Positions 19,369 to 50,989 of a stretch of DNA of 55,674 nucleotides are shown piece after piece. The notes beneath the pieces are model-generated. The model did not search any database, was not told the DNA's origin, and saw only the letters and a list, made by a program, of their open reading frames with translations. Within the stretch, counting starts at the first letter, position 1. Each line of letters starts with the position of its first letter. The stretch is from Bacteroidota bacterium (GTDB taxonomy: Bacteria > Bacteroidota > Bacteroidia > Bacteroidales > Prolixibacteraceae): NCBI GenBank assembly GCA_023251435.1, contig JAHEYU010000036.1:1-55674 (forward strand), written 5' to 3'. A program made the translations under genes and the position numbers.

Positions 19369-19376
19369 CAAAACTA
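19369..19376 (-). promoter_or_regulatory. -7 box TAGTTTTG of GH10 operon (promoter A)
   Basis: The minus strand reads TAGTTTTG, a perfect match to the Bacteroidota -7 consensus TAnnTTTG. The same octamer occurs before susC (44410-44417) and before the sulfatase operon (33093-33100), each time exactly 46 nt from the shared AAATCT motif. No -33 TTTG is visible at the normal spacing, which suggests activator dependence. The predicted transcription start is near 19362, about 140 nt before the GH10 ATG. Confidence 0.65.
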
Positions 19377-19414
19377 ATTCAAATAACCAAAAATATACTT
19401 TGAAATTATTTTGA

Positions 19415-19433
19415 AAATCTTTAAAATTGAACC
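19415..19433 (-). promoter_or_regulatory. Shared operator motif, copy A (GH10 operon)
   Basis: The plus strand reads AAATCTTTAAAATTGAACC. It starts 46 nt from promoter A on the upstream side. Compared with the other copies in the window it differs by 2 of 19 positions from each of copies B, C and D. It lies between the GH43-CBM6 stop codon (19476) and the GH10 promoter, the usual place for an activator site. I infer that it binds the AraC-type domain of the HTCS encoded at 44822-48805. Confidence 0.62.
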
Positions 19434-19475
19434 GACAAGTGGCTATGTTAATTGCTTTACCAACTTGAACTGAAA

Positions 19476-20825
19476 CTATTTAAACATCAACCAATCAAGT
19501 TCAACTGCTGTTTGTCTGGTTGAAACAATGAATAAATCGTGAACTCCAGTAAGATACTTTTCCAGCTTTACTTCTGATTGTTTCCATTCGGTTGATTTTT
19601 CAACACTAACTTTCGCCAAAACCGGACCATTCAATCCACCACAACGGATTTCGAAATTACTACCGGCTGCTGATTTTTCATTGATCACGACTTTTTTCAA
19701 ACCAGCCTTACTGAAATCGACTTTGTTGTAGCTAATCCACGAATCCTTTTCATTCAGCTTTACTTTCCATCCTTTAAATGTATTCAGTGAGTCAACAAAA
19801 CTGACGGAAACTCCTTCTTCTGATTTGGAACTGTAGCGATCAACCTGAATCTGGCTTTCTGCCCTTGAGATGCCCACACCACGTAGGCTTGGTATCACTT
19901 CCTGTATGGTTCCATCCGGATTAAAAAACAGACTGTCGGCCATGATGGAGCGGTTTTTATCGAACTTCGGCGAAAGATCGTTATGATGGTAAAAAAGATA
20001 AGATTGCCCATTGTAGTCAACAATTGACTGGTGATTGGTGTAGCATTTTATCGGCGATTCCTTCATGATTACGCCCTTATAATCATACGGCCCCAAAGGA
20101 TTGGCGCCAAGCGAGTATACAAGCTGTTCTGTTGTTTCAGGAATATAAGGAAAGGTCAAATAATATTGTCCATTGCGTTCAAACACAAAAGGTCCCTCGA
20201 TAAATTTTCCATTTCCAATTCCTTTTATTTTAATTGGTATGGGCAGCGTGGCGAGTTCGAGCATATTCGGCTTAAGTTGGGCTCCATAGATAACCCGGCT
20301 ATCTGCCCAATAGATATAAGCTTTGCCATCCTTTGCCATAAATACATTCGGATCGATACCGTAAATACCTGCCATGAAATTTGGTTCAGGAGTAAACGGT
20401 CCTTCCGGCTTGTCTGCTATGGCAACTCCTATCCGACGGCCTTTACCATTTATCTTTTCCGGAGCTTCGGCCGGAAAGTAATAATAATACTTACCATTCG
20501 TAAAAACACAATCGGGCGCCCACATCCGATAAGAATCAGGCTCGACCCATGGAACTGTATTGTGAGAGAGGATAACGCCATGATCCTGCCAATCCGTTAG
20601 ATTTTCAGAAGAGAATACATGGTAATCGGGCATACAAAAACCAATAAACCCTTGCCCTTCGCCACAAGGAACATCGTGCGACGGATAGATATAGATTTTC
20701 CCGTTGAAAACCCGGGCAGTCGGATCAGCCGTAAACTGATTCGTAACCAGTGGATTTTGTGCTATGGAAAAAGTCGTAAACAACAACAGTATTGCTAAAA
20801 ATAGAGGTAATCCAGATCGGTTCAT
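19476..20825 (-). CDS. GH43 hydrolase with CBM6-like C-terminal domain
   Basis: This 449-residue exported protein has a signal peptide ending at SIAQ. The propeller carries D34 in FTADPT, D158 in GIDPNV and acid E210 in FIEGPF. Residues about 325-449 are a CBM6-like beta-sandwich ending in GVHDLFIVS and VELDWLMFK. This architecture is typical of arabinoxylan arabinofuranohydrolases. It is the last gene of the sulfatase operon (46 nt after the sulfatase at 20872), and the GH10 regulatory region starts about 40 nt beyond its stop. A decayed copy of its C-terminus sits in front of the second GH10 gene at 51024-51100. Confidence 0.92.
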   Translation of the reverse strand: MNRSGLPLFLAILLLFTTFSIAQNPLVTNQFTADPTARVFNGKIYIYPSHDVPCGEGQGFIGFCMPDYHVFSSENLTDWQDHGVILSHNTVPWVEPDSYRMWAPDCVFTNGKYYYYFPAEAPEKINGKGRRIGVAIADKPEGPFTPEPNFMAGIYGIDPNVFMAKDGKAYIYWADSRVIYGAQLKPNMLELATLPIPIKIKGIGNGKFIEGPFVFERNGQYYLTFPYIPETTEQLVYSLGANPLGPYDYKGVIMKESPIKCYTNHQSIVDYNGQSYLFYHHNDLSPKFDKNRSIMADSLFFNPDGTIQEVIPSLRGVGISRAESQIQVDRYSSKSEEGVSVSFVDSLNTFKGWKVKLNEKDSWISYNKVDFSKAGLKKVVINEKSAAGSNFEIRCGGLNGPVLAKVSVEKSTEWKQSEVKLEKYLTGVHDLFIVSTRQTAVELDWLMFK

Positions 20826-20871
20826 GAGTAAATATTTGTATATTTTATTTTAATTGCAAAAAGTAGATATA

Positions 20872-22416
20872 TTATTTTCTCAACCAGTTTGGCAAAGGTT
20901 TCTTTATCGAGGTCTGGTAGTTGGCTAACTTCGCATAAGCTTCGTATTGCTGGTGTTCGCGCTCCATGGCTTCTGTGAAAAGCCGTTTCATATTCGCTTC
21001 TTCTTTGGCAAACTGCTTATCGCCCACCACACTTTTGGTTTCCAGCGGATCTTTTTCGTAATCGTACATTTCGCTTGCGATGACTTTCGCTTCGCTGAAG
21101 GGTTTTTCGGCAGAGTAGGAATCACTTATCCAGGCAGTATACCGGAAGCGTTTGGTCCGGATGCTGTAACCCATATTTTTACCTCGCGGATACTGACTTA
21201 AGGCATATTCCCTGATTTCAGTCTTTGGTTTTTTCATGGCCGGAACCAGACTGATGCCATCTAAATAGGTTGGTGTCGGGATATTGGCCAACTCGCATAA
21301 AGTCGGAAAAATGTCAACAAATTCGCATGGTGTGGTTGGTTTGCTGTTTTTCGCCATTCCATTCGCCCGCATCAGGAAACAGGCATGTGTAGCCTGCTCA
21401 AAATTGGAATGTTTGCACCACAAACCATGATCGCCCAGGTGCCAGCCATGATCGCCCCACAAAACCACGATTGTATTTTCACTAAGACCCAACCTGTCCA
21501 ACTCGTTCAGTACTTTCTGAAGCTGTGCGTCCATATACGAAGTAGCAGCATAATAGCCATGGATCAACTCCAATTGTTTCGTTTCGGACAAATGGTTCAA
21601 TTCATTTTCGGAATAGTTGTCGAATTGCGGAATATCGGTGTAATGCTTGATTTCTCCGGCTGGATGGTATCCAATATCCGGACTGTTCAATGCTTTCTGC
21701 TGAAATGGATGAATTTTAAATTGATCCCTCCTATATAAATCCCAGTATTTCTTGGGAGCGACAAAAGGTAAATGTGGTTTTGCAAATCCGATGGAAAGCA
21801 TAAACGGTTTTCCTTTGACATTTAATTGCTGCAACAATTTAATCCCTTCTTCAGCTATTCTTCCGTCTTTGTAGGTGTTATCCGGAACATCGGCACATTC
21901 GGTTGCCGGAAACTCATCTTTTTTAGCCAACACATAATTCGGAACATTGACCGGAACCCACGGAATTGACCAGGAAGGAGCGTCATGCCCCTTTCCGATA
22001 CTTGACTCATGGTAAATTTTACCCACACCAGCCGATTCGTATCCATTCCGGATAAAGTATTCGGGGATGGAAACCGCATTCGGATTCACCTGACGGAAAT
22101 CGGTATCCAAATCCCAAACCTTGGTTTTATCGGGGCGCATACCGGTAAGTATGCTTGCACGGGTCGGACCGCAAACAGCCTGCTGAACGTAGCAATTCTG
22201 AAATGTCATTCCTTCTCTGGCCAGCCGATCCATGCCGGGTGTAATGGCGATACGATCTCCATAAGCCCTGATCAAAGGCTTCAGGTCGTCGACTGCGATA
22301 AAAAGGATGTTTGGTTTGGCTTTGCTTGCATCTTTAGTACCAGCGGCGACTGTCTGTAATGTTGCCAAGCCCAATGAAGCCAGAATAATACTGCTGTTTT
22401 GAATAAATCGTTTCAT
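20872..22416 (-). CDS. S1-family sulfatase, iduronate-2-sulfatase-like
   Basis: This 514-residue exported sulfatase has a signal peptide ending near TVAAG. The metal ligands AVDDLKP come first. C82 in CGPTR is the formylglycine site, followed by ASILTGMRPD. The late metal segment reads GDHGWHLGDHG, and WCKHSNFEQATH follows. The ordering and these segments resemble iduronate-2-sulfatase-type S1 enzymes, which cleave 2-O-sulfate from uronic acids; this fits an acidic polysaccharide, but the subfamily is not secure. It lies between two GH43 genes (63 nt and 46 nt gaps), which argues that desulfation and arabinose/xylose removal are coordinated. Confidence 0.93.
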   Translation of the reverse strand: MKRFIQNSSIILASLGLATLQTVAAGTKDASKAKPNILFIAVDDLKPLIRAYGDRIAITPGMDRLAREGMTFQNCYVQQAVCGPTRASILTGMRPDKTKVWDLDTDFRQVNPNAVSIPEYFIRNGYESAGVGKIYHESSIGKGHDAPSWSIPWVPVNVPNYVLAKKDEFPATECADVPDNTYKDGRIAEEGIKLLQQLNVKGKPFMLSIGFAKPHLPFVAPKKYWDLYRRDQFKIHPFQQKALNSPDIGYHPAGEIKHYTDIPQFDNYSENELNHLSETKQLELIHGYYAATSYMDAQLQKVLNELDRLGLSENTIVVLWGDHGWHLGDHGLWCKHSNFEQATHACFLMRANGMAKNSKPTTPCEFVDIFPTLCELANIPTPTYLDGISLVPAMKKPKTEIREYALSQYPRGKNMGYSIRTKRFRYTAWISDSYSAEKPFSEAKVIASEMYDYEKDPLETKSVVGDKQFAKEEANMKRLFTEAMEREHQQYEAYAKLANYQTSIKKPLPNWLRK

Positions 22417-22479
22417 AATCGTATTAATCAGTTTAAGAAAATATTTGAATTAAAAGACGGGATAAATTTCTGAACTGGT

Positions 22480-24186
22480 TTATTTTTCCCGGTAATAGAA
22501 ATTGTCGAAATAAACCAGATTCTGACTCGGTTTTCCATTCGACGTGGCATACATTCCGATTAATAGACCGGTAAAGCGGCCTCCATAAACGAATTTAGTT
22601 GAAGACAAATCGATATCCTGTTTTAAATTCGTCCATTTCTTGCCGTTGCCCGAATAGCTGAAGCTATGAACCAGACCTTTTACTGTCATTTTTAACTGGA
22701 TATTCCCATTTTTCGCAGGTGCTTCTGCAAGTATAGAATCTGCTGTAGCTTTTCCTGAACGTAAAGCGACTTTTAAAACCAGCTGTTTATTTTCGCGCGT
22801 CAGGGTGTATTTGAGATAACAATTCCGATCACGCTCCAATAAAATACCAGCCTCTTCATTTTCAGCAGCCGGATTAAACTTCATGTTCGTTACAACGCTG
22901 AAATTGGCATGTTCCTGCCGCTTGCAAACAAAGGAAGGATTCACCTTGTCGCTGATCATTTCGGGCCGAACTTGCAGACATAAATATCCTTTCTTTTCGG
23001 ATAACGACCACCACTCCGAACGTGGCGTGCGCAGGAAGTTCCATTGAAAATGAAGTTTTTCGGCATTAAACTCTTCCAAAAGATAACTTCTATCTACAAG
23101 CATTTCAGGCAGATTGGGTTTCTCCTGAACCAATTCACTTCGTCCGATTTTTCCTTTTGGATTAACGACCGGCCATTCTCCCGACCAATCGACCATACTG
23201 ATGAATGTTTCACGACCCAAAATAATCCGTGGATTGTTCTTTTTTTCATCCTGTATCGGACGCTTTCCCAAATAAACAATGGCCCAGTCATCGTTTTGAA
23301 TTTGAATTAAATCGGCATGACCGGTAGCTGTAATAGGATAAGTCGTTGGTAAATCACGGTGGGTAAGTATCGGATTATTGTGGTTCATTTCCCAGGGGCC
23401 AAAAATATTCTTGCTCCTGAAAATAACAAATGCATGGTTCTGACCTGTGCCGCCAATAGAGCAAGTAAAATAGTATGTGCCATCCTTTTTGTAAATATGA
23501 GGCCCTTCCATGGCATTGAGGTAATTCACATTGTCTGCTCTAAGTGGGTTTACGGTACTGTAAAAATCTGCTGAATTGCAGTTGGTATGCCTTTCGCCCA
23601 CTAATTCCCATTTTTTCAAATCAACTTCCTGTGTCCAAATAGTATTGTGGCCACTCCAAACCTTGTCTTCTGGGTTAGGTTTAAATGTTCCCGACATATA
23701 AACTTTTCCATCATCATCGAAAAACAAATCAGGGTCAATGCCGGGCGCACCTTTTATCCAATGCGGTTCCGACCAGGGTCCTGCCGGATTGGTGGCAGTA
23801 CAAATAAAATCGCCTCCTCCCTTACCTATGAGGGTTGTAACCATATAAAAAACACCTTTATGATATCGGATGCAAGGCGCATATATACCCCCCGAACTCT
23901 CACACTCATCCAGATTCAACTGCGATGGACGATCGAGCACATGGCCAATCATCTCCCAGTTCACCAGGTCGGAACTGTGATACACCGGAACACCGGGAAA
24001 ATACTCAAAGCTTGAAGTCACCAAATAGTAATCTTTACCAACTTTACAAATACTTGGATCGGGATTAAAACCCGAAATGATTGGGTTGTTGAAGGTATTT
24101 TTTGATGATTCCTGAGCATTGCTCTCTGTAGCGAATACAAGAGTCAGCACGATCAGCAGACTGGAAAAAGTTTGTTTGTAGTTCAT
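22480..24186 (-). CDS. GH43 beta-xylosidase/arabinofuranosidase with C-terminal beta-sandwich
   Basis: This exported two-domain GH43 has 568 residues and a signal peptide ending at SNAQ. Its catalytic set is D43 in FNPDPS, D151 in GIDPDL and E227 in AMEGPH. The C-terminal third (about 365-568) is the concanavalin-A-like domain of family members, with LRTPRSEWWSL near its start. It is a paralogue of the protein at 9977-11614: both share the PDPSICKVG-type opening, HVLDRPSQLNL and IRYHxGVFYM. It has an insertion around 165-220 that the paralogue lacks in part, which may alter subsite shape. It lies in the sulfatase operon between two sulfatases. Confidence 0.92.
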   Translation of the reverse strand: MNYKQTFSSLLIVLTLVFATESNAQESSKNTFNNPIISGFNPDPSICKVGKDYYLVTSSFEYFPGVPVYHSSDLVNWEMIGHVLDRPSQLNLDECESSGGIYAPCIRYHKGVFYMVTTLIGKGGGDFICTATNPAGPWSEPHWIKGAPGIDPDLFFDDDGKVYMSGTFKPNPEDKVWSGHNTIWTQEVDLKKWELVGERHTNCNSADFYSTVNPLRADNVNYLNAMEGPHIYKKDGTYYFTCSIGGTGQNHAFVIFRSKNIFGPWEMNHNNPILTHRDLPTTYPITATGHADLIQIQNDDWAIVYLGKRPIQDEKKNNPRIILGRETFISMVDWSGEWPVVNPKGKIGRSELVQEKPNLPEMLVDRSYLLEEFNAEKLHFQWNFLRTPRSEWWSLSEKKGYLCLQVRPEMISDKVNPSFVCKRQEHANFSVVTNMKFNPAAENEEAGILLERDRNCYLKYTLTRENKQLVLKVALRSGKATADSILAEAPAKNGNIQLKMTVKGLVHSFSYSGNGKKWTNLKQDIDLSSTKFVYGGRFTGLLIGMYATSNGKPSQNLVYFDNFYYREK

Positions 24187-24233
24187 GAATAGTCAACTGT
24201 AAATCAATGTTTTATTTCAATTATCTTTTAAAA

Positions 24234-25922
24234 TTACCGACGACCTGTTTTTATTTGTACCACTTCACTATCGGCAAATCCAATCCGGTTTGACATGACA
24301 TAAAGAAACATCCCATCCTTAGCCTTAACTGGCTCATGATACAATTGCCAGCCGCTGTTTAAATCTGGTTTGATTTCTTTTTCCGAAAGAATATATCCAA
24401 TCGATGCTCCCGGTGTAGAACAGGAAATCCTGATGGTTTCCTTTTTGTTTGAAACGATTGATTTTGCTGTTACAGGCTGAATTCCTCCGGGCCACATCTG
24501 TTCGATCATTTGAGATTCAGGAATTACAGCCTTATCGTGAATGTTATTTATATGCTGATCCAAAGCGCCTCGGAGTTCATTGATTTTAGCGGCATACATT
24601 GGATCATCAACCTTATTTGTGAGGTTAAACGGATCCGTATCACAATCGTAAAACTCTTCTTTTGTTTTATGGAGTCTGAACCAATAGGCTGTTGGTCCCG
24701 AAAGTTCTTTGTTATCCCTCAGGCGCAAAAGTTCCTGCATCATATCCATCTGTTTCCGGTAGGCAACATCTTTGTAGGCTGGCAATTCAGGATAAAAATT
24801 TCGGACAAATAAATAACGCTTGTCCCTTATCATCCTGACACGATCAGAAAAATCATCGAACCGGTCGCCTGAGCCGAAAATGTATTTTCGGGGTTCCGGA
24901 ACTTTATATTTTCCCAGAAAAGCCTTACCCTGCATATATTCCGGTGGTTTTATGCCTGCCAGTGACAATACTGTCGGAGCCAGATCGACAAAAGAGATCA
25001 GTTCGTCATTTCTTCCGGCGTGAGCCCCTCCCGGAAAATGCACCAGTAAAGGAACATGAAGCCCTGTATCATAGATTTCGCGCTTGCCACGTGGCAATGG
25101 TCCGCCATGATCGCTAAAAAAGAAAATGATGGTTTTATCGTAAAGCCCGGCCTTTTTCAGTTCATCTATTTTTTCGCCAATCTGCTGGTCAAGCAATTCG
25201 ATGTTCGAATAATTGCGTGCCACATCCTGCCGCACAACGGAGTTTTCAGGATAATAATCAGGCAAAGGAACCGATTCCGGCTTTACGGTCTGTGGCAGTT
25301 TTTTGTTCAGCCACATTTGCGATTCATGGGTGATATCGTGGTTGAAAACCGAGAAAAAGGGTTTCCCCGACGGGCGATTTTGCCAGCCTGCCTGATTGCC
25401 GTTTTCGTCCCAGGCCGTTATCGGTGCAGCAAACTGGTAATCGGTCTTGGCATTGTTCGTGCAATAATAGCCGTCAGCCCGAAGGTATTCCGTAAAACAC
25501 TTTACATAGTCAGGTATCACCGCTGAATATTGCCGCACTGGTTTTCCTGCAACATCTGTAGCTAAGGTTTTCTCCGGATATTTTCTGTTTCCCCATCCCG
25601 CAACATCAAGCGCAGTGCGCATGTGCATAGTCCCGATGGAAGGTGGATACATTCCGGTAATAATTGATGAACGACTTGGCGCACAAACACCAACGGTGGC
25701 AAAGGCTCGGGTAAAAACAAGGCTTTCTTTGGCCAGCTTGTCGAGATTGGGCGTGTGTGCCGTTGAATCGCCATAAAATGAAAGGGTTGGGCTGATGTCT
25801 TCGCAGCTTAGCCACAGGATATTTAGCCGTTCAGTCTGCTTTGGAGGATTCGCCCCCATAGTGGATAAAGAGCCAGCTAAAAGTGCTATTGCAGCGAAGT
25901 GTTCTTTTAGGTTTGTAGTCAT
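24234..25922 (-). CDS. S1-family sulfatase, heparan N-sulfatase-like branch
   Basis: This 562-residue exported sulfatase has the metal segment LSCEDISP, where a CED replaces the usual DD; this is seen in the N-sulfoglucosamine-sulfohydrolase-like branch. C80 in CAPSR is the formylglycine site. The second metal segment is FFSDHGGPLPRGKR, followed by YDTGLHVPLLVHFPG. A roughly 80-residue C-terminal extension (about 480-562) has beta character and could bind carbohydrate. The signal sequence is weak: MTTNLKEHFAAIALLAGSL then TMGANPP. It sits 61 nt after the PfkB kinase gene and 47 nt before a GH43 gene. The N-sulfatase resemblance does not prove N-desulfation; many relatives act on O-sulfated algal or plant glycans. 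Confidence 0.9.
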   Translation of the reverse strand: MTTNLKEHFAAIALLAGSLSTMGANPPKQTERLNILWLSCEDISPTLSFYGDSTAHTPNLDKLAKESLVFTRAFATVGVCAPSRSSIITGMYPPSIGTMHMRTALDVAGWGNRKYPEKTLATDVAGKPVRQYSAVIPDYVKCFTEYLRADGYYCTNNAKTDYQFAAPITAWDENGNQAGWQNRPSGKPFFSVFNHDITHESQMWLNKKLPQTVKPESVPLPDYYPENSVVRQDVARNYSNIELLDQQIGEKIDELKKAGLYDKTIIFFFSDHGGPLPRGKREIYDTGLHVPLLVHFPGGAHAGRNDELISFVDLAPTVLSLAGIKPPEYMQGKAFLGKYKVPEPRKYIFGSGDRFDDFSDRVRMIRDKRYLFVRNFYPELPAYKDVAYRKQMDMMQELLRLRDNKELSGPTAYWFRLHKTKEEFYDCDTDPFNLTNKVDDPMYAAKINELRGALDQHINNIHDKAVIPESQMIEQMWPGGIQPVTAKSIVSNKKETIRISCSTPGASIGYILSEKEIKPDLNSGWQLYHEPVKAKDGMFLYVMSNRIGFADSEVVQIKTGRR

Positions 25923-25983
25923 GATTTTATATTTCTCTATTCATAATTATAATTGAATATTGTTAATAGGTCTTTTATATGTA

Positions 25984-27048
25984 TCAATTGAATAGTTTTG
26001 AATGTTTCCTCCACCCTTCCGCCATCCTTTTTAGTAACGATTCCCAACCGGGGACACCACTTAAAGAATCAACTGCTTCAACATTGCAGGCACCGGTGGC
26101 CACAGCCACTGAAAGCGCTTCTTCGGCTGACATTCCTTTTAAACGTGCGGCTAAAAATCCGGCAATGGTGCAATCGCCTGAACCAATCGCTCCTTTCAGC
26201 TCGACCTGAAAACAAGGTGTATAATACGATTCTGTTTCAGACCTGTAATATGCGCCAAACTCGCCAAGTTTTATCAGAACTTCATGGGTACCCATCGCAA
26301 TTAATTTTTTCCCAAGCGATTCCAAATCATTCAAGGTAAGACCTCCCAAAGGTTTATCTGAAGTAATAAATTGTTCAAAGAGCGGGCGGTTGAGCATATA
26401 CAAAAGCTCATCAATGCTTGGGGTGAAAATATCCACAAAAGGCAGAACCTGACATATCAGTCCTTCCCAATCTGCTTTACCTGCTTCAGTCTGGGGATCA
26501 GGCCGGGCCATGTCGAGAGAAGTAGTAACACCCAAATTTTTAACAGATTTGAAAATCTTCAAAAGTTCGTCTCCTCCATCCGAAAACAGTGAGTACATCA
26601 GTGGAGGATACCCCAGGTGAAAATGCCTGGAATTTTTTATCAGTTCGTAATTGAGATCGTCAAAACAAAATGTATCATTAACACCCGGATAATGAAGCGG
26701 AATACGATCAATACCAGGAATATTCAGAACCACCGTATAGGAAGTACCGCAGTTTTCATCGGTTATCATGCCATTTATTGGCAATCCATCGGCAACCATT
26801 TTTGCCAATATACTTTGTCCAAGTATATCGTCACCAATTTTCCCCATAGGGCAAACAGTTAATCCTAACCGGTTTAAAGCACCGGCAGTATTAGGTACAG
26901 TGCCTCCCATTGCCTGTACCATTGGTCCAACCTGAACCAATTTCCCGGGCTGAATGATTTTATCAATCGAATTTCCTCCTTCAAGAAATGTTGGAAGTAA
27001 ATCCATGCAGGTGTGTCCTGCAACAATACAATCTATTTTGCTACTCAT
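25984..27048 (-). CDS. PfkB-family sugar kinase
   Basis: This 354-residue cytoplasmic protein has no signal peptide. The N-terminal PfkB signature region reads GGTVPNTAGALNRLG and the C-terminal signature contains KGAIGSGDCTIAGF; the catalytic aspartate lies in GSGD (the usual motif is GAGD). The family phosphorylates free sugars such as ribose, fructose and related ketoses. Its start codon overlaps the stop of the isomerase gene by 4 nt, so the pair probably works in sequence: isomerization of an imported aldose, then phosphorylation of the ketose. The sugar is not predictable by eye; the PUL context favours a pentose or a 6-deoxyhexose. Confidence 0.88.
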   Translation of the reverse strand: MSSKIDCIVAGHTCMDLLPTFLEGGNSIDKIIQPGKLVQVGPMVQAMGGTVPNTAGALNRLGLTVCPMGKIGDDILGQSILAKMVADGLPINGMITDENCGTSYTVVLNIPGIDRIPLHYPGVNDTFCFDDLNYELIKNSRHFHLGYPPLMYSLFSDGGDELLKIFKSVKNLGVTTSLDMARPDPQTEAGKADWEGLICQVLPFVDIFTPSIDELLYMLNRPLFEQFITSDKPLGGLTLNDLESLGKKLIAMGTHEVLIKLGEFGAYYRSETESYYTPCFQVELKGAIGSGDCTIAGFLAARLKGMSAEEALSVAVATGACNVEAVDSLSGVPGWESLLKRMAEGWRKHSKLFN

Positions 27049-28451: not shown

Positions 28452-28469
28452 ATAATTATTTTTTTTTAA

Positions 28470-29864: not shown

Positions 29865-29924
29865 TTTTTCGTTTTATTATGGATTATAGTTTAATTATTG
29901 TAGTTACTTTCAACCGGAGTTCAA

Positions 29925-31301: not shown

Positions 31302-31364
31302 ATTTTAAATACTCAAATTTGTGTTTCCACGAATTGAAAGGTCATTTTAATTCCTGGATTCAGT

Positions 31365-33050: not shown

Positions 33051-33092
33051 TTATTGGTTTTAAGGTTAAAGTAAAATATATAATTAACTACT

Positions 33093-33100
33093 CAAAACTA
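33093..33100 (-). promoter_or_regulatory. -7 box TAGTTTTG of sulfatase operon (promoter D)
   Basis: The minus strand reads TAGTTTTG, matching TAnnTTTG. It lies 43 nt from the sulfatase ATG, with a predicted transcription start near 33087. The box is identical to those of the GH10 and susC operons, and the distance to the shared motif is exactly 46 nt. No -33 TTTG is recognisable. Confidence 0.65.
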
Positions 33101-33138
33101 GGTGAAGAATTCGTGTTAATCCTGGTAAATAAAATCTA

Positions 33139-33157
33139 AAATCTATAAAATTCAACC
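33139..33157 (-). promoter_or_regulatory. Shared operator motif, copy D (sulfatase operon)
   Basis: The plus strand reads AAATCTATAAAATTCAACC, two mismatches from copy A. A partial extra AAATCT lies immediately beside it at 33132-33137, so the site may be double. It sits between promoter D and the terminator of the SusCD operon. Confidence 0.62.
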
Positions 33158-33180
33158 AAATTACTGATTGCAATAAACAA

Positions 33181-33252: not shown

Positions 33253-33300
33253 CTCTTGAACCACTAACTATTTCAAATCAAACTAATTCTTGTTACGATT

Positions 33301-36161: not shown

Positions 36162-36172
36162 TTGATTTTTGG

Positions 36173-39211: not shown

Positions 39212-39236
39212 TCTTTTTTAGATATTAAACCGTGCA

Positions 39237-41054: not shown

Positions 41055-41065
41055 CGTTTCTGCTA

Positions 41066-44000: not shown

Positions 44001-44314
44001 GCTACCTGAATGATAAAATTACCATCGCCGTCGGTAATGGTTCCGGTAGTGGAACCTTTAACCATGACAGTTGTTCCGGGGATTGATTCGCCATTGGTAT
44101 CAACAACTTTTCCTTTGAGCGACTTTTTGAGGACTTGTCCCTGCTCTGATTTTCCATTAAACAAATCAGGACTTCCCAATACATCATCATAACTACTTGC
44201 AGATAGCGACATCGATACAGCAAGGAAGATGATGGTCAAGAGCTTCATTTTAAGTAAAACAACATTCGGTTTCTTCCTTACCCAGGAAGAGTAATAATTC
44301 GAATTTTTTTCCAT
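41066..44314 (-). CDS. SusC-family TonB-dependent transporter (pair 1), first gene of transport operon
   Basis: This 1082-residue outer-membrane transporter has an unusual 22-residue N-terminal lead followed by the signal segment MKLLTIIFLAV; the shorter start at Met23 (44248) is an alternative. Residues about 66-137 are the carboxypeptidase-regulatory-like domain (KGKVVDTNGESIPGTTV). EEVVAVGYGTQKK (143-155) precedes the plug with its LVDGVERK and LKDASATAVYGVKGANGV signatures. The barrel ends at INLGLDLKF. It follows promoter E at 96 nt and starts an operon of five genes, the high-expression product of an induced PUL. Confidence 0.96.
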   Translation of the reverse strand: MEKNSNYYSSWVRKKPNVVLLKMKLLTIIFLAVSMSLSASSYDDVLGSPDLFNGKSEQGQVLKKSLKGKVVDTNGESIPGTTVMVKGSTTGTITDGDGNFIIQVAPDAKILVFSFVGFTSLEVPIGNKASFSVVLEEQTVGIEEVVAVGYGTQKKASVVGAITNTTSKELARTGGVSNLGMALTGNLPGVTTIQVSGQPGRTDPKIYIRGQSTWNGGEPYILVDGVERKMNDLDMSEVDNVSVLKDASATAVYGVKGANGVILITTKRGVKGRPVLSVSANSTLKIPSRMVDKLDSYDALMLRNEAVEREVSISESSWADYTPRTIIERYRNQANLKYPEAYPNVDWQDVMVKRVAADKHVNLSVSGGTDFAKYFSSLSYLNEGDLLKPISDDLGYKPGLGYDRFNFRSNLDLNLTKTTSLKINLAGVYSVAKDTYSFKANEFDDELRILISAHMTPPDSYLPRYSDGRWGKSPLNKQSLMNSAQILANSGVRRTMTTNLTSDFSLTQKLDFITKGLSATANLSFDNNFTSVGGTYNQDSNAKTKYISPDIEDMPAGGDPNAYIILDPIVGLNQFDFVVQPWTLRDEDADGYLSRLRRRLFYQAQFNYARTFGMHDVTATGVFNREQLATGSEFQRYREDWVFRTTYNFDNRYFAEFNGAYNGSEKFSSSYRFDFFPSAAVGWTISNEKFMKNMTWLDKLRLRYSYGLIGDDNISQRWLYDTQWSYGTSAFINENAGVNSPYTWYKESVIGNPDIHWEKASKSNLGLEIAVLENMLSANFEYFTEDRTDILLGGGSRVLPVYFGGTPPTANVGHVSKKGYEIELRFDKRWSKGLHIWGTTSVTNAVDKILYKEEPELKDSYLKEQGFQIGQTRTQITDGFINNWNELYASTPYSASDQFKLPGNYNIIDFNGDGVIDGNTDTAPYGFSNRPQNAYNLSFGADYKGFSFMLQFYGVNNVNRFVGLGDFGDNLNIAYTHALDFWSKDNLDASSFLPRFRQQTGFNKGNYFQYDGSYVRLKTAEVAYTFEGALLKRTGLSSLKLYVNGNNLFFWSDLPDDREQGYEQFGSYPSPSRINLGLDLKF

Positions 44315-44409
44315 AAGTTTTTAATTGCTTTTGTTAATAATGTTGTCCGGTGGTTTTTACTTCAATCCATCGATATAAAACACTACCGTTCTTTTTACAA
44401 TATTGCCTT

Positions 44410-44417
44410 CAAAACTA
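44410..44417 (-). promoter_or_regulatory. -7 box TAGTTTTG of susC operon (promoter E)
   Basis: The minus strand reads TAGTTTTG (consensus TAnnTTTG). The predicted start of transcription is near 44403, giving a leader of about 90 nt before the SusC ATG. The shared motif begins exactly 46 nt upstream. A -33 TTTG is not apparent. Confidence 0.65.
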
Positions 44418-44455
44418 TGTGAATATGACCACTGGCTTCTTGAAAATTGAACTAA

Positions 44456-44474
44456 AAATCTGGATTATTCAACC
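44456..44474 (-). promoter_or_regulatory. Shared operator motif, copy E (susC operon)
   Basis: The plus strand reads AAATCTGGATTATTCAACC, the most divergent copy (four mismatches from copy D) but at the same 46-nt spacing from the -7 box. A second half-like element, TTGAAAATTGAAC at 44440-44452, adjoins it on the promoter side. Confidence 0.55.
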
Positions 44475-44612
44475 AAAAGAACTTGCAATTGGATCGTTTT
44501 CGCAAAAGTGAAATGCCCACATTCCCGGATGAATTATTTGCTGGTTGGATTAATGATTTAATTGCAGAAAGATATCCTGAATGAAACGAATATAACCGCA
44601 TTGAACCAATTG

Positions 44613-44640
44613 TAAATCGGAAATGGTTAAATCGGAAATG
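44613..44640. repeat. Two direct repeats TAAATCGGAAATG
   Basis: The 13-mer TAAATCGGAAATG occurs at 44613-44625 and again at 44628-44640, a 15-nt period. It lies between operator copies E and C in the divergent control region. Direct repeats at about 1.5 helical turns could be a second regulator site, or simply local duplication. Confidence 0.6.
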
Positions 44641-44700
44641 ATTTTATTTTTCACCGGATTAAAATCTGGCACTTTTACCCATTCTTAAAAATAAATTTCG

Positions 44701-44719
44701 AAATCTTTAAAATTCAACA
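44701..44719. promoter_or_regulatory. Shared operator motif, copy C (near HTCS)
   Basis: The plus strand reads AAATCTTTAAAATTCAACA, two mismatches from copy A. It lies 103 nt before the HTCS ATG and 291 nt beyond promoter E. No TAnnTTTG box lies at 46 or 35 nt on the susC side, so this copy may serve regulator autoregulation or act as a distal susC site. Confidence 0.55.
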
Positions 44720-44821
44720 ATAAAAACCCATTTTTGACCCCAATTCAATAAATGAATCGTATTTAAAAAAGCAGAATCCGGTTATTAAATCAGGAATGAT
44801 TAGTAAACATTCAACCCGCAA

Positions 44822-47800
44822 ATGACAATCCGAATGATATTTCAGCAACGAATAAGGTTTTCGGCTGTAATTATTATTTTTCAGCTTATGTCTTCCCTGT
44901 TCCTTTTTTCGGAGGAGCGGCAAAAATTCGTGTATTATACCGATATAGACGGACTACCCCGAAACATTACCACCTGCATTGAGCAGGATAAATATGGGTA
45001 CATCTGGGTTGGTACCGGAAACGGCCTGGCCCGATACGATGGAAATACATTTGCCACCTATGATCAGTTTAAAGGCAGACTTATAAATTGCTTGTACATT
45101 GATTCAAAAAATAACCTTTGGGTTGGAGGAAATAATGGGTTGTATGTCTACAATAGAATTACCAATTTTTTCGAGCTCCGGTCAACAGGTTATATCCAAA
45201 AAATTCAGGAAGATAATGGTGAAATCTATTCACTCCATGCCAGACTAATTCAAAAGAATTCAGCTTCTGGAAATACGGAGGTTAAAATCGAAAATGATCT
45301 CCTGAATTTTTGTCTTACCGAAGAGGGCATTTGGCAAAGTACAAAGAAAAACGGGGCAAAACTTCTAAGCCGCAAAAGTGGATTCCAAACTGCTTCAGAT
45401 AGTATCCTCGACGGTTATTCCGTTTCTGTTATCAGTTCTATTGATGGCAATTTATTCTTTGGTTGCCGGAATGGTCAGTTATTCGTAAAAAAGACCGATG
45501 GAAGCCTCACAACTATTGTGATCGAAAATCACCACAACTTCAAAAAAATAGTCCGGGTTGATGATGAGATCTGGCTTGCCACCGACGGAAACGGAATCAT
45601 TGTACTCGATGCGAACTTGAAATATTCCAGAACTTTGAACCGGAATCAGAACAAAAATCAATCGATAAGCAGCAACAGTATTTACGATATTTTCCATGGA
45701 ATCAATCACGAAATCTGGATCGCTTCCTATGGAGCCGGATTAACCTGTATCCTTCCCGACAATTCATTATTCACGAATATTGTTCCTGAAAATGGAAATC
45801 TAAATTCACTGGTGGCCAGCGAAGGAGTAGCTGTTTATGCAAAGAATGGAATCATCTGCTTCGGAACCAATTACGGTATGTCAGTTTTGGATGAACGTAA
45901 AAATGTATTTACCAATTTTTCGATGGAACGGATGCGAAGTGAGCTCGGAGGTGTAAAAGTTTTAGGCATTAGTAGCGACAAGGAAAAGAATTTATGGTTA
46001 GGTACCAACGACGGCCTTCTTGGAAAATATTCTTCGGACTTCCAATTTCAGAAAGCCTTTCATCCATGCAGCAACAATCCTGAAGAAATGCAGCAAATAG
46101 TGCTGATACAAAATTATAACAACACCAATCTGGTAATTGGCACGCAGTATCAGGATCAATGTCTGCTAAATTTTGATTTGAAAACGGAAACATTTTCAAC
46201 CTTAAATTTGATACACGATTCAAAAAAAATCAGCCATTTTCAAATTAATTCGATACGCGAAAATCAAAAGGGTGAAATGCTGGTACTCAACTCCGATTCA
46301 GGCCTGTACCGGTTAAATTTCAAAGAAAACAGGATGGAAAACTGCTTTCAGGAAATGAACAGAAAAATCAGTTTCTGGAGGAACGATTTTTACAATGATA
46401 AAAGTGGAAATTACTGGTTCACGACCAGAACTGATGGATTAATCCGAATATCAGCAGATGGTTCGGATTTGAAAAAATGGACTGTTAAAGATGGATTTGT
46501 CACCAATTCGTTGATACGAATCGAATCGGTTGATGATCAATTTCTGTGGATCAGCTCGATTGCCGGTCTTTGCCGCTTTGAAATGAAAACCGGACAAATT
46601 CTCAACTTCAATCATCGGGATGGACTTCCGGCCAACGAATTTACCGAACGGAATTCGGCAAAAACAGATGATGGCCGCATCATTTTTGGTTCGGTAGCCG
46701 GGTTCACCATCGTTAATCAGGCCAATGTCGTAACCGACACCACAAAAACAGAAGTCATCATTTCAGATATTACGTTTCAGAACCAAAGCATCAGAAATCC
46801 GGATGGCAAACAATTCTTAACCGCTCCGCTGGAAGAAACAACTGAAATAAAACTTCCTTTTAGCCGGAACTCGTTTACAATTCACTTTTTTACCCGGAAC
46901 AAGGATTTACCTAAATACAACAATTACAGCTACCGGATGATTGGCCTGGAAAAGGAGTGGACTTTTCTGAGCGAAACCAACCACATCAATTACACCAATT
47001 TATCGCCCGGGAATTATGTGTTTGAGGTAAAAAACGCATCAAACACAAATTTCGATGACACCCCACCTACCCAACTTATTATTCGGATTAATCCGCCCTG
47101 GTATCTAAGCTGGTACGCCTTTGCCGGATATATTGGCTTATTTTCGGGTATCGCTTATCTGTTGCTCACGATCTATACCAATCGGGTTCAGCTACGAAAA
47201 GAGGTGGAAATATCTGAATACAAAGTTCAGAAAGAGCATGAGCTCACGGAAAAAAAACTGGCCTTTTTCACCAACATTTCACACGACCTGAAAACACCAC
47301 TAACACTAATTGACGCACCTGTTAATGATTTAATTCAATCAAAAAATCTGAATCCGGAACAAGTAAATAAACTTATGCTTATCCGGCGTAATTCAAGGCG
47401 ACTGTATAATCTGATTTCAGATTTACTTGATTTCAGGAAACTTACGCAAAAACAATTTGCATTAAAGGTCTCGGAAACAAACATACAGGAACTTATAGAG
47501 GAAATATTTCTGGCATTTGAAGAGGAATGCAAAAATAAGTCGGTGAATTTGGAATGGAGCGCCAACGCTGAATATACCGTATTTATTGATGTCAGAAAGG
47601 TTGAAAAAATACTTTGGAACCTACTATCCAATGCTGTTAAGTTTACCGGGAATGGCGGTACTATCTTTTTGGGAGCTAAAGTGAAAATTCAGGATGGAAA
47701 AAAAGTACTGGAACTGATCGTAAAAGATACAGGAATTGGAATTGCTGAAGTTGATCTGGCCAAAATATTCGACCATTTTTATCAGGTTCGCAACGGTAAA

Positions 47801-48805
47801 AAAACAGCCCAGGAAGGAACCGGGATTGGACTTTCTATAGTAAAAGAGCTGGTTGATTTGCATCATGGTGAAATTCTGGTAGATTCAATTCCAGATGCCG
47901 GCACCACTTTTCGCATTACAATTCCTGCCGATAAAGATCATTATGCCGAAGTAGAAACAGAAAACACGGAAAACCAACTTCCTTTATCCGCCGGAATAAA
48001 ACAAAAGACGGATTTTCCATTAGAAAAAGAAGCTGAACAGAAATTCTATAATCGTCCACGAATTCTGATTGTAGAAGACAATTCTGAACTTCGCAATTAT
48101 TTAGTCGGGCACTTTAAAAAAGCGTATAAAGTTGATCAGGCAGAAGACGGGAAGAGAGGTTTGGAGATCGCGATGGAAATCAATCCGGATCTGATTTTAA
48201 CCGATGTGCAGATGCCAAACATGAACGGATATGAATTTTGCAGGGAGATTCGCCAAAATTTTGACACGTCGCATATTCCGGTGGTTATGCTAACCGCCAA
48301 CAGTGCTGTTGAACAGCAAATCGAAGGACTTTCGACCGGTGCCGATGCCTATGTAACCAAACCGTTTGACATTGAATTATTAGACACCGTTTTACAATCG
48401 GTTCTGGAAAACAGGAAAAAACTTCGGTACAAGTTTTTGAGAGTTGAACCTGCCGATGAAAATGAAAACACAATACCTCAAAAAGATATTGATTTTATCT
48501 TGAATCTGAAGAGTTACATCGAAAAAAACATGGTCAATCCTGATTTGAATATCGATATGATTTCTGACCATTTTACTGTTAGCCGTACCCAGTTAAACCG
48601 GAAGATAAAATCGCTGACCGGCTCCACACCCAATAACCTGATTAAAACCATCCGATTGAAAAAAGCCTGGGAACTTATCCGCCAAAAAGATGCACGGGTT
48701 TCGGAAGTTGCTTATTTGACAGGCTTTAGCGATCCGAATTATTTCACCACCTGCTTCAAAAAAGAATTTGGCGAAAACCCGTCGCAGATTGGTGGAGAGC
48801 AATAA
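44822..48805 (+). CDS. Hybrid two-component system (HTCS) sensor-regulator
   Basis: This 1327-residue one-protein two-component system is the only plus-strand gene. After an N-terminal hydrophobic segment (about 12-29) comes a large periplasmic sensor (about 35-690) of Reg_prop beta-propeller repeats (KYGYIWVGTGNGLARYDG and similar), then a Y_Y_Y domain (about 690-757) and a transmembrane helix (about 760-785). The cytoplasmic part has the HisKA H-box with H821 in NISHDLKTPL, N-box LLSNAVKFTG, DTGIGI, and GTGIGLSIV. The receiver has D1128 in LTDVQMPNMNG and K in VTKPFD. An AraC-type DNA-binding domain closes the protein (FTVSRTQLNRKI, VAYLTGFSDPNYF). HTCSs sense oligosaccharides and activate the adjacent PUL. 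Its target is presumably the shared 19-bp motif. Confidence 0.96.
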   Translation: MTIRMIFQQRIRFSAVIIIFQLMSSLFLFSEERQKFVYYTDIDGLPRNITTCIEQDKYGYIWVGTGNGLARYDGNTFATYDQFKGRLINCLYIDSKNNLWVGGNNGLYVYNRITNFFELRSTGYIQKIQEDNGEIYSLHARLIQKNSASGNTEVKIENDLLNFCLTEEGIWQSTKKNGAKLLSRKSGFQTASDSILDGYSVSVISSIDGNLFFGCRNGQLFVKKTDGSLTTIVIENHHNFKKIVRVDDEIWLATDGNGIIVLDANLKYSRTLNRNQNKNQSISSNSIYDIFHGINHEIWIASYGAGLTCILPDNSLFTNIVPENGNLNSLVASEGVAVYAKNGIICFGTNYGMSVLDERKNVFTNFSMERMRSELGGVKVLGISSDKEKNLWLGTNDGLLGKYSSDFQFQKAFHPCSNNPEEMQQIVLIQNYNNTNLVIGTQYQDQCLLNFDLKTETFSTLNLIHDSKKISHFQINSIRENQKGEMLVLNSDSGLYRLNFKENRMENCFQEMNRKISFWRNDFYNDKSGNYWFTTRTDGLIRISADGSDLKKWTVKDGFVTNSLIRIESVDDQFLWISSIAGLCRFEMKTGQILNFNHRDGLPANEFTERNSAKTDDGRIIFGSVAGFTIVNQANVVTDTTKTEVIISDITFQNQSIRNPDGKQFLTAPLEETTEIKLPFSRNSFTIHFFTRNKDLPKYNNYSYRMIGLEKEWTFLSETNHINYTNLSPGNYVFEVKNASNTNFDDTPPTQLIIRINPPWYLSWYAFAGYIGLFSGIAYLLLTIYTNRVQLRKEVEISEYKVQKEHELTEKKLAFFTNISHDLKTPLTLIDAPVNDLIQSKNLNPEQVNKLMLIRRNSRRLYNLISDLLDFRKLTQKQFALKVSETNIQELIEEIFLAFEEECKNKSVNLEWSANAEYTVFIDVRKVEKILWNLLSNAVKFTGNGGTIFLGAKVKIQDGKKVLELIVKDTGIGIAEVDLAKIFDHFYQVRNGKKTAQEGTGIGLSIVKELVDLHHGEILVDSIPDAGTTFRITIPADKDHYAEVETENTENQLPLSAGIKQKTDFPLEKEAEQKFYNRPRILIVEDNSELRNYLVGHFKKAYKVDQAEDGKRGLEIAMEINPDLILTDVQMPNMNGYEFCREIRQNFDTSHIPVVMLTANSAVEQQIEGLSTGADAYVTKPFDIELLDTVLQSVLENRKKLRYKFLRVEPADENENTIPQKDIDFILNLKSYIEKNMVNPDLNIDMISDHFTVSRTQLNRKIKSLTGSTPNNLIKTIRLKKAWELIRQKDARVSEVAYLTGFSDPNYFTTCFKKEFGENPSQIGGEQ

Positions 48806-48846
48806 AACTGTAAATTAGTCCGGAAGTTACTTTCCTTATGTATATT

Positions 48847-50892
48847 TTAGTTTCCACTTAGCTTAAAAACCTTTACCTCATTTTCATTGCTCACCCTAAG
48901 AGTGTAAAATCCGGGATTAGCAACCTGGATAATAGTTCTTCCTGCTGAATTCTCCAATTTTTTCAGGAATACACTTTGCCCATGAGCGTTGAAAAGTTCG
49001 GCAGTAGTTTCGCCAATTTGCAAATCACTTGTTTCCAGCACAAAAGAACCTTTAAATGGATTCGGGTAAACTTTGAAGGAATTTTGACGGAGATTTTTAT
49101 CACCCAGCACATAATTTTCCATTTTCAATACTACAGAATTGGATATTCCGCTTTTGTTGGAATTATTGACATTAAACGTTCCAGTGATTTCTTTTCCGCC
49201 TGATTTTACCGTGTATTTGTAAGTACCTAAAAATCCTTCGAACGATACATTTCCCTGCGAATCGGTAGTTTTATCTGTTTTTTTCGTCCACCACTGATTA
49301 AAAACCAGCTCTTTGTATGCTTCGCCATGTGGTCTGATGGTCCAGTCTGAATTGAAAAATGCGCCATCGGGCAGCCAGTGACTATTGGCCCAAAAGCCCC
49401 AAAAAAGGAACGATTTTACTGATGCATGACTAAAAACAATGGTCATAAAATCACGGGTATATTCAGCCTGCACAACCCTTTGAGAAACATTTATATCGTG
49501 CTCTGTAATCTTAATCTCCTTTCCCAAAGTAGCAAAACGTTCAAGAATGGAATATACTTTGGTGATGGACGTGAGATCGCTTCCGAAATGTCCCTGCATC
49601 CCGATTCCGTCAACCTTTCCACCTTTTTCATCGATATACTTTACCAGATTGTAATAATAATCCTGCTTTTTGGTATCCGATCCGCCTCCACTTAGAATTC
49701 CATAATCATTCAGGTATAGTTTAACTGCACTGTCGTTTTGCCGAACCCTTTTAAACCAGTCGGCCATTACCTCATCGCCCAAAATAGCCATTATATCTTT
49801 TTCTGAATAAGGCTCATTAATTACATCCCAGTCATTCAACCTTCCTTTTGTAAATTGAGTAACCTCATCAATGCGTTTTTCGATGGTAGTGCGCAAAGAA
49901 GCCGGATTTGTTTCAAGGGCTTTCAAGGAGGTTGGCGTAAATTTCCATGATGGCCAAATCACATTGTGACCGCGAACTGGTATCTTATGACGGTCGAGAG
50001 AATCAAGCGATCTGCGGATATTAAGTGTTGAATTGATATTAAACTGAGGCCATTTCAAGTCGTTCTCGAAAACAACCTCATTAAAAAGTTCATATACTTT
50101 ATTTCTAAAAACAGAATTCGACAGGAAAACGCTGGCCGGAATGGCAGTTCCGAAGCCAAACTGGTGCCTTACCATTTCGATGGAAACCGCAGCATCCTTC
50201 ACAACGTTTCCAAGCTGATCCTTTACCACAATATCCACTTTCCCTTTTCTAATCTGGTCGATCCGGTTGGTTGCTGCTACCCGCCACGCCGCATCTGCCG
50301 CCTGACCAGAATATGTAATTTCAGTAACCGGCAAATCGTTTACGGTAAGTAAATTCTTATAATTCAGAAATTTAACATCGGCAACCTCAATGGTTTGCGA
50401 CGCATAACCAGTAAATAAAGCATAACGGGTCAGAGCTGTGGTCCAGGTTGACTTGCATTTAACCGATGCATAATACTGTTTCCACTCTTTGCCAATTGTG
50501 AGCTTTGTTGAAATTTCCTTATCGTAAGTAGTTGCATTCTCAATTACAACATGAACAGCACCTTCTCCTGCTTCCTGAACAGAAGAGATTGTTCTGGCAT
50601 AAAATGTAACCAAAATAACATCGTTTGCAGCAATTCCAACAACCGACGGAAATTGAATCTGGGCATCCCAGAAATTCAGAATATCAGTTCCTGTAACATA
50701 CCGAAGCGCTGTTGTAAAAGGCTGACCAGTAACTGTAACCAGCGACAAAGTACCTTTGCCAATTTTCTGGTAGGTGGTTCCTGTAACAGAATTTACAATG
50801 GTACCTCCGGCCGGGATTTGAGCATACACCGATCCCCAGATAAGCAAAAATGTGAAAACAAAAAGCGTTCGCAGATGTAATTTATTTTTCAT
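48847..50892 (-). CDS. GH10 endo-beta-1,4-xylanase, multidomain, T9SS-secreted (copy 2)
   Basis: This 681-residue paralogue of the GH10 protein at 17171-19219 has the same domain order: signal peptide ending at VYAQ, jelly-roll CBM4/9-like module, GH10 barrel, short beta domain, T9SS sorting domain. Acid/base E360 (VINEPYSE) and nucleophile E464 (IKITEHDIN) have the same residue numbers as in copy 1, so the two are collinear to that point without net indels. They are near-identical through the barrel core but drift in the CBM and in the tail. It has its own operator and promoter, is monocistronic, and converges on the HTCS gene with a 41-nt gap in which I see no good terminator. Confidence 0.95.
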   Translation of the reverse strand: MKNKLHLRTLFVFTFLLIWGSVYAQIPAGGTIVNSVTGTTYQKIGKGTLSLVTVTGQPFTTALRYVTGTDILNFWDAQIQFPSVVGIAANDVILVTFYARTISSVQEAGEGAVHVVIENATTYDKEISTKLTIGKEWKQYYASVKCKSTWTTALTRYALFTGYASQTIEVADVKFLNYKNLLTVNDLPVTEITYSGQAADAAWRVAATNRIDQIRKGKVDIVVKDQLGNVVKDAAVSIEMVRHQFGFGTAIPASVFLSNSVFRNKVYELFNEVVFENDLKWPQFNINSTLNIRRSLDSLDRHKIPVRGHNVIWPSWKFTPTSLKALETNPASLRTTIEKRIDEVTQFTKGRLNDWDVINEPYSEKDIMAILGDEVMADWFKRVRQNDSAVKLYLNDYGILSGGGSDTKKQDYYYNLVKYIDEKGGKVDGIGMQGHFGSDLTSITKVYSILERFATLGKEIKITEHDINVSQRVVQAEYTRDFMTIVFSHASVKSFLFWGFWANSHWLPDGAFFNSDWTIRPHGEAYKELVFNQWWTKKTDKTTDSQGNVSFEGFLGTYKYTVKSGGKEITGTFNVNNSNKSGISNSVVLKMENYVLGDKNLRQNSFKVYPNPFKGSFVLETSDLQIGETTAELFNAHGQSVFLKKLENSAGRTIIQVANPGFYTLRVSNENEVKVFKLSGN

Positions 50893-50935
50893 TGTGCGTT
50901 AAATTTAGTATCAGTTCAGTTTATAGTTTATACCC

Positions 50936-50943
50936 CAAAGCTA
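50936..50943 (-). promoter_or_regulatory. -7 box TAGCTTTG of GH10 copy 2 (promoter B)
   Basis: The minus strand reads TAGCTTTG, matching TAnnTTTG with one base different from the other three promoters. It is 44 nt from the ATG. The distance to the shared motif is 35 nt rather than 46, a shift of 11 bp or about one helical turn, which would keep the site on the same DNA face. Confidence 0.58.
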
Positions 50944-50970
50944 ATTGAATTAAACAATTATATCTTTTGA

Positions 50971-50989
50971 AAATCTTTAAAATCGAACA
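50971..50989 (-). promoter_or_regulatory. Shared operator motif, copy B (GH10 copy 2)
   Basis: The plus strand reads AAATCTTTAAAATCGAACA, two mismatches from copy A. The preceding TTTTGA is also shared with copy A (19409-19414). It lies about 35 nt from the stop of the GH43-CBM6 relic, mirroring the arrangement in front of GH10 copy 1. Confidence 0.6.

Follow-up and report, generated by a model that had tools for sequence, protein, structure and literature searches.

The window, the whole 55,674-nt stretch of Prolixibacteraceae DNA analysed here, contains two GH10 copies, a sulfatase operon, susC and an HTCS gene at 44822, whose product unites in one chain a Reg_prop propeller sensor, Y_Y_Y, HisKA, HATPase, REC and an AraC-type HTH (Pfam), with a SHIP motif in REC at residue 1150. 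Its DNA-binding domain is 62–71% identical in nine of ten compared orthologs, as opposed to 43–53% for their sensors, and 29–47% identical in 12 paralogs; the tenth compared ortholog, L028, has an additional output module appended to it.

An initial annotation had placed an 18-nt motif at 19415, 33139, 44456, 44701 and 50971, and all five coordinates are correct. The 18-mer is a real motif, but only the distal half-site of a larger element, in which two directly repeated boxes stand 21 bp apart and TAnnTTTG follows; counted from the initial base of the extended distal box, the TA lies at a distance of 57 nt. The second box, missed in the annotation, is present 21 bp downstream at four of the five window sites. 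Its strength is given below as a score fraction, that is, the score rank as a fraction of window positions.

44822–48805, plus strand: HTCS gene, 1327 aa (Pfam)
19416–19433, minus strand: GH10-1 distal half-site (motif match, matrix scans, profile search)
19395–19412, minus strand: GH10-1 proximal half-site, 21 bp downstream, a weak box (score fraction 0.0027, top 0.27%; 0.0011 one base over)
19369–19376, minus strand: GH10-1 –7 box TAGTTTTG (register and genome composite pattern)
33140–33157, minus strand: sulfatase-operon distal half-site (motif match, matrix scans, profile search)
33119–33136, minus strand: sulfatase-operon proximal half-site (score fraction 0.0007, top 0.07%)
33093–33100, minus strand: sulfatase-operon –7 box TAGTTTTG (register and genome composite pattern)
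44457–44474, minus strand: susC distal half-site (11-site matrix and profile search)
44436–44453, minus strand: susC proximal half-site (score fraction 0.0005, top 0.05%)
44410–44417, minus strand: susC –7 box TAGTTTTG (register)
44702–44719, minus strand: distal half-site of an extra operator 103–141 bp before the HTCS start (motif match, matrix, profile search)
44681–44698, minus strand: proximal half-site of the extra operator before the HTCS start (score fraction 0.00006, top 0.006%)
50972–50989, minus strand: GH10-2 distal half-site (motif match and matrix scans)
50961–50978, minus strand: GH10-2 proximal-like half-site, weak (score fraction 0.004, best of the positions tried)
50936–50943, minus strand: GH10-2 –7 box TAGCTTTG, 11 bp closer than elsewhere (register; homology to the GH10-1 promoter)

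The gap of 46 nt given in the annotation is exact at 19369/19415, 33093/33139 and 44410/44456, each with an identical TAGTTTTG, and that of GH10-2 is indeed 35 nt (50936/50971, with TAGCTTTG). These –7 boxes are of the TAnnTTTG type found in primary-sigma Bacteroidota promoters, and the absence of a –33 TTTG is borne out by a wider count: in none of 16 promoters (four from the window and 12 ortholog promoters) does a TTTG start 17–24 nt upstream of the TA. A missing –33 box is compatible with an activator-dependent promoter, and is a weak sign of activator dependence because the –33 motif is not shared by the whole phylum; in Flavobacterium johnsoniae, according to the available part of the source, no –33 motif could be identified (PMC7366714).

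The sites differ among themselves. That of susC had been called weaker, which is true of its distal box, absent among the 14 matches listed from an unseeded single-box matrix scan, but not of the site as a whole, since its proximal box is the highest scoring among sites that have a –7 box. At the 44701 operator a –7 box at the register was looked for and not found. GH10-2 deviates from the direct repeat: a second box 21 bp downstream of its distal box was sought and not found, and the site is absent from the 41 matches of the whole-genome profile search described below. The GH10-1 and GH10-2 proteins are 72% identical with alignable upstream regions, and the GH10-2 site is a duplicate of the GH10-1 promoter that has lost a net 11 bp at the proximal box; as a duplicate it is not an independent example, and it is at most a candidate for a promoter working one helical turn closer. 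Its proximal-like box lies one base off the usual register and overlaps the distal box. A code common to all PUL units, as originally proposed, is too broad: it holds for three promoters, is altered at GH10-2 and lacks the –7 box at the 44701 operator.

In the window, five matches to the 18-mer occur with up to three mismatches (19415, 33139, 44701 and 50971 from the annotation, plus 35506) against 1.7 expected; one of 100 shuffles reached five. This count by itself is modest evidence, and the convincing part is the genome count: all three exact copies in the 5.73-Mb genome lie inside the window, two copies carry one mismatch (50971 and another on contig C37, inside an open reading frame, where TAnnTTTG was looked for at the register and not found), and up to two mismatches yield 26 matches versus five with a reversed control. 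The composite pattern is exact only at the GH10-1 and sulfatase promoters, has no one-mismatch copy genome-wide, and at up to three mismatches gives 13 matches versus eight for the reversed control. The repeated word upstream of the window operons is confirmed as a real observation.

The same motif is recovered from relatives. A Gibbs search run with no seed and with the window sequence excluded found it in 13 regions upstream of orthologous HTCS genes (one region misplaced: L116, of genome G116, is not a true upstream region), and the same optimum was reached by seven of the ten best among 150 restarts. TAnnTTTG occurs at exactly +57 in 9/9 de novo ortholog sites facing away from the HTCS, a count that leaves out four HTCS-strand sites (L111, L113, L114 and L116); boxes 21 bp apart agree at 8–12 of 18 positions in nine de novo sites, where about five are expected. 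A gapless 65-column alignment takes in twelve HTCS-side promoters, whose –7 boxes comprise ten perfect TAnnTTTG and two TACTTTTA (G038 and G054); at five ortholog operators that point towards the HTCS, no –7 box stands at the register. When the window is scanned with the unseeded single-box matrix, its sites rank 1, 2, 3 and 5 (rank 4 is 26554), and with a matrix from 11 sites they rank 1–5 of 111,198 positions, a result that is partly circular for the distal box, though not for the proximal, in that those sites were first found with the annotation's motif. The genome-wide search that the annotation had suggested, run with a profile of the 12 ortholog promoters (model R1), puts four sites of the window at the top (E 3.1e-4 to 1.3e-3), followed by a partial match outside the window, in an open frame, at E 0.009. 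Three of the 12 rows of R1 (G038, G037 and G054) were located with a matrix that includes three window sites; both that matrix and R1 contain the –7 box, so that only the 9/9 count is a free test of the register. G038 is also among the sites first found with the annotation's motif.

Across 139 other genomes of the family, profile matches at E ≤ 1.1e-4 occur in 11 of 12 genomes with an HTCS ortholog versus one of 127 others; ten of these 11 are profile training genomes, and G123 is not. Three such promoters in G123 and one in G119 were not used in building the profile, and all four have TAnnTTTG at the register, a box that the profile includes. At the loose limit of E ≤ 0.05, some match, mostly partial, is found in 75 of 140 genomes, and a partial match in G062 (7.1e-4) ranks above two of the sites in the window. 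The element is conserved beside orthologous HTCS genes, G116 being without a match. It is found close to the HTCS whichever gene comes next (SusC, sulfatase, GH5 or GH39), and relatives keep the register even in front of a changed downstream gene.

This co-occurrence across genera, together with the published 21-bp direct-repeat form of such sites, strongly supports the annotation's prediction of an HTCS operator, and the paired site is very probably the operator of the HTCS at 44822. The motif might instead be bound by another regulator, encoded elsewhere and controlling the same PULs, as G119 (80% complete) has the promoter and a search for an HTCS ortholog detected none, and G116 has a 5′-truncated ortholog, its frame beginning at residue 334 though the contig continues, without a profile match. 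Yet across genera the operator goes with the HTCS even where the PUL genes differ, the repeat has the form of HTCS sites, and among 28 window ORFs Pfam matched a DNA-binding domain in the HTCS alone, all of which makes a second regulator improbable. Less probable still is that the element is only part of the promoter, whether an A/T-rich stretch upstream or the promoter of an alternative sigma factor. In favour of this are the lack of a –33 TTTG and the A/T-richness of the upstream sequence; against it are a normal primary-sigma –7 box in a constant position and an upstream direct repeat that is sequence-specific and has no other strong match in the genome. Least probable is that the repeats merely descend from a single promoter region by duplication and need not be functional: GH10-1 and GH10-2 are indeed duplicates, but the repeat and register persist before different genes beside HTCS orthologs of other genera at 48–59% protein identity.

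We favour, with a probability of roughly 90%, the reading that the complete unit is an activator-dependent promoter at which an HTCS (44822) dimer on the two half-sites recruits RNA polymerase. The AraC-type output domains would bind the direct repeat as a dimer, the 21-bp spacing of two helical turns setting both half-sites on the same DNA face. With the –7 box as reference for the putative start sites, the distal half-site would span about –71 to –54 and the proximal about –50 to –33, positions that would put the proximal subunit in the place of the –33 TTTG, where it could bring RNA polymerase to a –7 box lacking a –33 partner, in an AraC-like, class II arrangement. The invariant distance to the –7 box without a –33 leads to the prediction that the proximal subunit replaces the –33 contact; if so, a 5-bp insertion should abolish activation. 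On sensing an oligosaccharide, the HTCS would phosphorylate its own receiver domain and free its DNA-binding domain, and the freed output may activate three operons at once: susCD, the sulfatase operon and that of GH10-1. One HTCS thereby gains a concrete, testable predicted operator, with half-sites and promoter register, and the profile picks its likely targets in whole genomes.

The araI1 and araI2 sites of E. coli lie in direct orientation with a 21-bp pitch and overlap the –35. As at araBAD, in the sections of the source available, where an AraC-type dimer on two sites adjoining the promoter recruits RNA polymerase (PMC4760080), we propose the same for the HTCS; in contrast to AraC, which senses arabinose in the cytoplasm, the HTCS is a phosphorelay protein of the membrane, and the promoter is of the Bacteroidota TAnnTTTG type. 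HTCS operators that are direct repeats with an average of 21 bp between sites are already known from 16 predicted Bacteroides thetaiotaomicron HTCS regulons (Ravcheev et al., 2013; PMC3878776), and the window operator is a well-supported further case. As far as the accessible part of that paper goes, the likeness extends to the position before susCD/CAZyme operons near an AraC-type HTCS and to discovery by comparing orthologous loci, whereas the bacterial family is another; the half-site here is of the GATAGAATnTnAAAGATT type. Here the register relative to the –7 box has been measured and does not vary; none is reported in the same part of that paper, and we came across no publication that describes an invariant register between an HTCS operator and the –7 box. 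HTCS output fragments of BT0366, BT4124 and BT4663 gel-shift their own PUL promoters, in the excerpts available (PMC5061871, PMC11253607); these in vitro tests concern Bacteroides systems of the gut, whereas the window HTCS is known here from sequence alone. It has the SHIP part of the motif that these sources tie to an inhibitory REC–DBD contact, the comparison covering that part of a motif that also includes D and K residues.

A wider reading, which we find rather doubtful, is that the unit is a portable cassette set before unrelated genes (SusC, sulfatases, GH5, GH39, perhaps fucosidase), that HTCS promoters generally share a fixed grammar, and that sensor–target pairs are readable from sequence across Bacteroidota, possibly including distant targets. 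If other HTCS groups have comparable registers, orphan sensors could be matched to promoters by sequence alone. A first test, on the surroundings of 120 HTCS genes, showed a strong signal at 21 bp, which we rejected as a class-wide grammar: TAnnTTTG sites inside HTCS coding sequence gave the same signal, as 21 bp is a whole number of codons. With coding sequence masked, 220 non-ortholog sites give a weak signal (p 0.046 at lag 21; p 0.0005 at lag 22, picked among 15 lags). Taken with the two further groups described next, this confines the demonstrated fixed register to the present ortholog group. A 22-locus HTCS group, mostly Prevotella and relatives, yielded no clear motif. In another group, of 29 loci, a CCCGCTTTTTGGGAAATA-type repeat is seen by eye after the HTCS gene, and TAnnTTTG follows in only four of the 29 rows, at 60, 87, 87 and 88.

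A promoter motif had been proposed in the initial annotation as the common binding site of the HTCS, a membrane sugar sensor with an AraC-type DNA-binding domain (44822–48805, plus strand), and it is present at every place named: before the first GH10 gene (GH10-1, 19415), the sulfatase operon (33139), susC (44456), the HTCS itself (44701) and the second GH10 gene (GH10-2, 50971). Its sequence on the target genes' coding strand is GTTSAATTTTWWAGATTT, and its three exact matches in the 5.73-Mb genome all lie inside the window. Taken as the whole element, the 18-mer is real but incomplete: it is the distal box of a larger operator, with a second, proximal box 21 bases downstream at four of the five sites. 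Scored at the expected place with proximal boxes derived from orthologs, these fall in the top 0.27% (GH10-1), 0.07% (sulfatase), 0.05% (susC) and 0.006% (44701) of window positions. The fixed spacing holds at three sites, where the TA of the −7 box (TAnnTTTG) is 56 nt away from where the 18-mer starts and, measured from the extended box's first base, 57 nt; the 46-nt gap noted earlier is this same distance, taken between start coordinates on the plus strand. The GH10-1 spacer also holds a second TAnnTTTG (TATTTTTG) at 19388–19395, 37 nt from the 18-mer start.

Searching 139 other genomes of the family, we found HTCS orthologs (48–59% identity) in 12; they are clearly separate from paralogs (at most 38% among the matches listed). 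An unseeded Gibbs search covering 530 bp at each of 13 ortholog genes, with the window left out, returned GATAGAATnTnAAAGATT as its best motif, with the same optimum in seven of the ten best of 150 restarts. TAnnTTTG stands at exactly +57 in all nine sites that face away from the HTCS, out of 13, and 12 HTCS-side promoters align without gaps over 65 columns (composite matrix and alignment), two of them (genomes G038 and G054) carrying TACTTTTA. Among further promoters, the −7 box at HTCS locus L028 is shifted one base downstream, and the one before a sulfatase-like gene in G037 contains one mismatch.

A sequence profile built from these 12 promoters ranked window sites as the top four matches in their own genome (E 3.1e-4 to 1.3e-3); the fifth (E 0.009) is partial and inside an open frame, and GH10-2 is absent from the 41 matches. 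When 140 family genomes, own included, were searched, 11 of the 12 others that have an HTCS ortholog gave strong matches (E ≤ 1.1e-4), and 10 of those 11 were training genomes. One genome where no ortholog was detected, G119, also matched strongly. The ortholog genome lacking a strong match, G116, has an HTCS frame without its first quarter. In G123 and G119, none of whose matches were used in training, four of four carry TAnnTTTG at the register. At a looser limit (E ≤ 0.05) 75 of 140 genomes were matched, mostly partially, and one partial match (G062, 7.1e-4) ranks above two of the window's own.

Judged by the genes behind it, the operator accompanies the sensor and not particular enzymes. 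It precedes a SusC-like gene in G037, G047 and G054, a sulfatase-like gene with SusCD genes after it in G038 and G057, and a 1019-aa protein in JAKPQD, where a second site precedes an enzyme that by eye is GH39-like. In G123 operators stand before a GH5 enzyme beside the HTCS and before an adjoining GH39 enzyme; a third promoter, on another contig of this draft assembly, has as its first frame of at least 150 aa an alpha-L-fucosidase about 500 bp off. Among 11 genome flanks compared, some of them short, a tandem SusCD region like that of the window was found only in G038, and the G057 flank holds one SusCD pair up to the contig end.

Counted from the −7 box, the distal box spans roughly −71 to −54 and the proximal box roughly −50 to −33, and TTTG was found 17–24 nt before the TA in none of 16 promoters. 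Both observations fit an AraC-like activator whose proximal subunit would stand in for the −33 contact, although PMC7366714 describes the −33 motif as not general in the phylum. We infer that the HTCS binds the operator and activates transcription. The HTCS carries a SHIP motif at residue 1150, which in Bacteroides, according to PMC11253607, is associated with a DNA-binding domain kept inhibited until phosphorylation occurs.

Operators of 16 Bacteroides thetaiotaomicron HTCSs are predicted in PMC3878776 to be direct repeats at an average distance of 21 bp, and PMC11253607 and PMC5061871 describe gel shifts in which HTCS fragments bind PUL promoters. A search of open-licence literature gave no report of a fixed −7 register; PMC5061871 mentions a supplementary figure in which predicted HTCS sites are marked along with −7 boxes. 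Because such 21-bp repeats are published and no report of the register was found, we class the window operator with the known HTCS direct-repeat kind, to which the fixed −7 register adds one regularity. Efforts to extend the register to HTCS groups class-wide failed. A 29-member HTCS group (L185, L186, L207 and others) has, by eye, an approximately 21-bp direct repeat of CCCGCTTTTTGGGAAATA type beyond the 3′ end of the HTCS gene. One member, L185, is from the window's own genome, and the +57 register of this repeat lacks TAnnTTTG.

Some operators face the HTCS, and these have no TAnnTTTG at the register in G037, G038, G047, G054 and G057. These sites, like 44701, may serve autoregulation or be auxiliary:
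44701, 103–141 bp ahead of the HTCS start: the window's best bipartite operator, lacking a −7 box
L144:114, minus strand: HTCS-facing operator in an ortholog genome
L147:19822, plus strand: HTCS-facing operator in an ortholog genome
L150:128, minus strand: HTCS-facing operator in an ortholog genome
L139:9475, plus strand: HTCS-facing operator in an ortholog genome
L152:132, minus strand: HTCS-facing operator in an ortholog genome

The window, a polysaccharide-utilization locus, encodes two SusCD pairs, one HTCS, four GH43 enzymes, four sulfatases, two proteins matching GH106 and two GH10 enzymes:
17171–19279: GH10-1 gene
48847–50892: GH10-2 gene, protein 72% identical to that of GH10-1, promoters alignable
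Alignment of the two GH10 upstream regions leaves a net gap of 11 bp at the proximal box, and the genes with their promoters are a duplication differing by this net 11 bp. GH10-2 retains a poor proximal-like box one base off register; its operator is a derived copy whose activity may be weak or lost.

The region 1279–34329 encodes GH10, GH43, GH106, GH35/42-like, four sulfatase, fucose-isomerase-like and PfkB-type genes, and this mixed set suggests as substrate a sulfated glycan containing xylose and deoxy-sugars.

The patchy distribution of the HTCS ortholog would reflect transfer or loss. Three close named matches are metagenome-assembled genomes, two labelled Bacteroidota and one Prolixibacteraceae. 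The ortholog occurs in other genera of the family; in 22 same-genus genomes searched, the best matches among those listed are at paralog level (E 4e-160 or weaker). At L028, a 1602-aa open frame (9917–14722) encodes a complete HTCS and, continuing in the same frame, a second module of receiver and AraC-type output domain, this whole module being 38% identical to residues 1070–1322 of the window HTCS.
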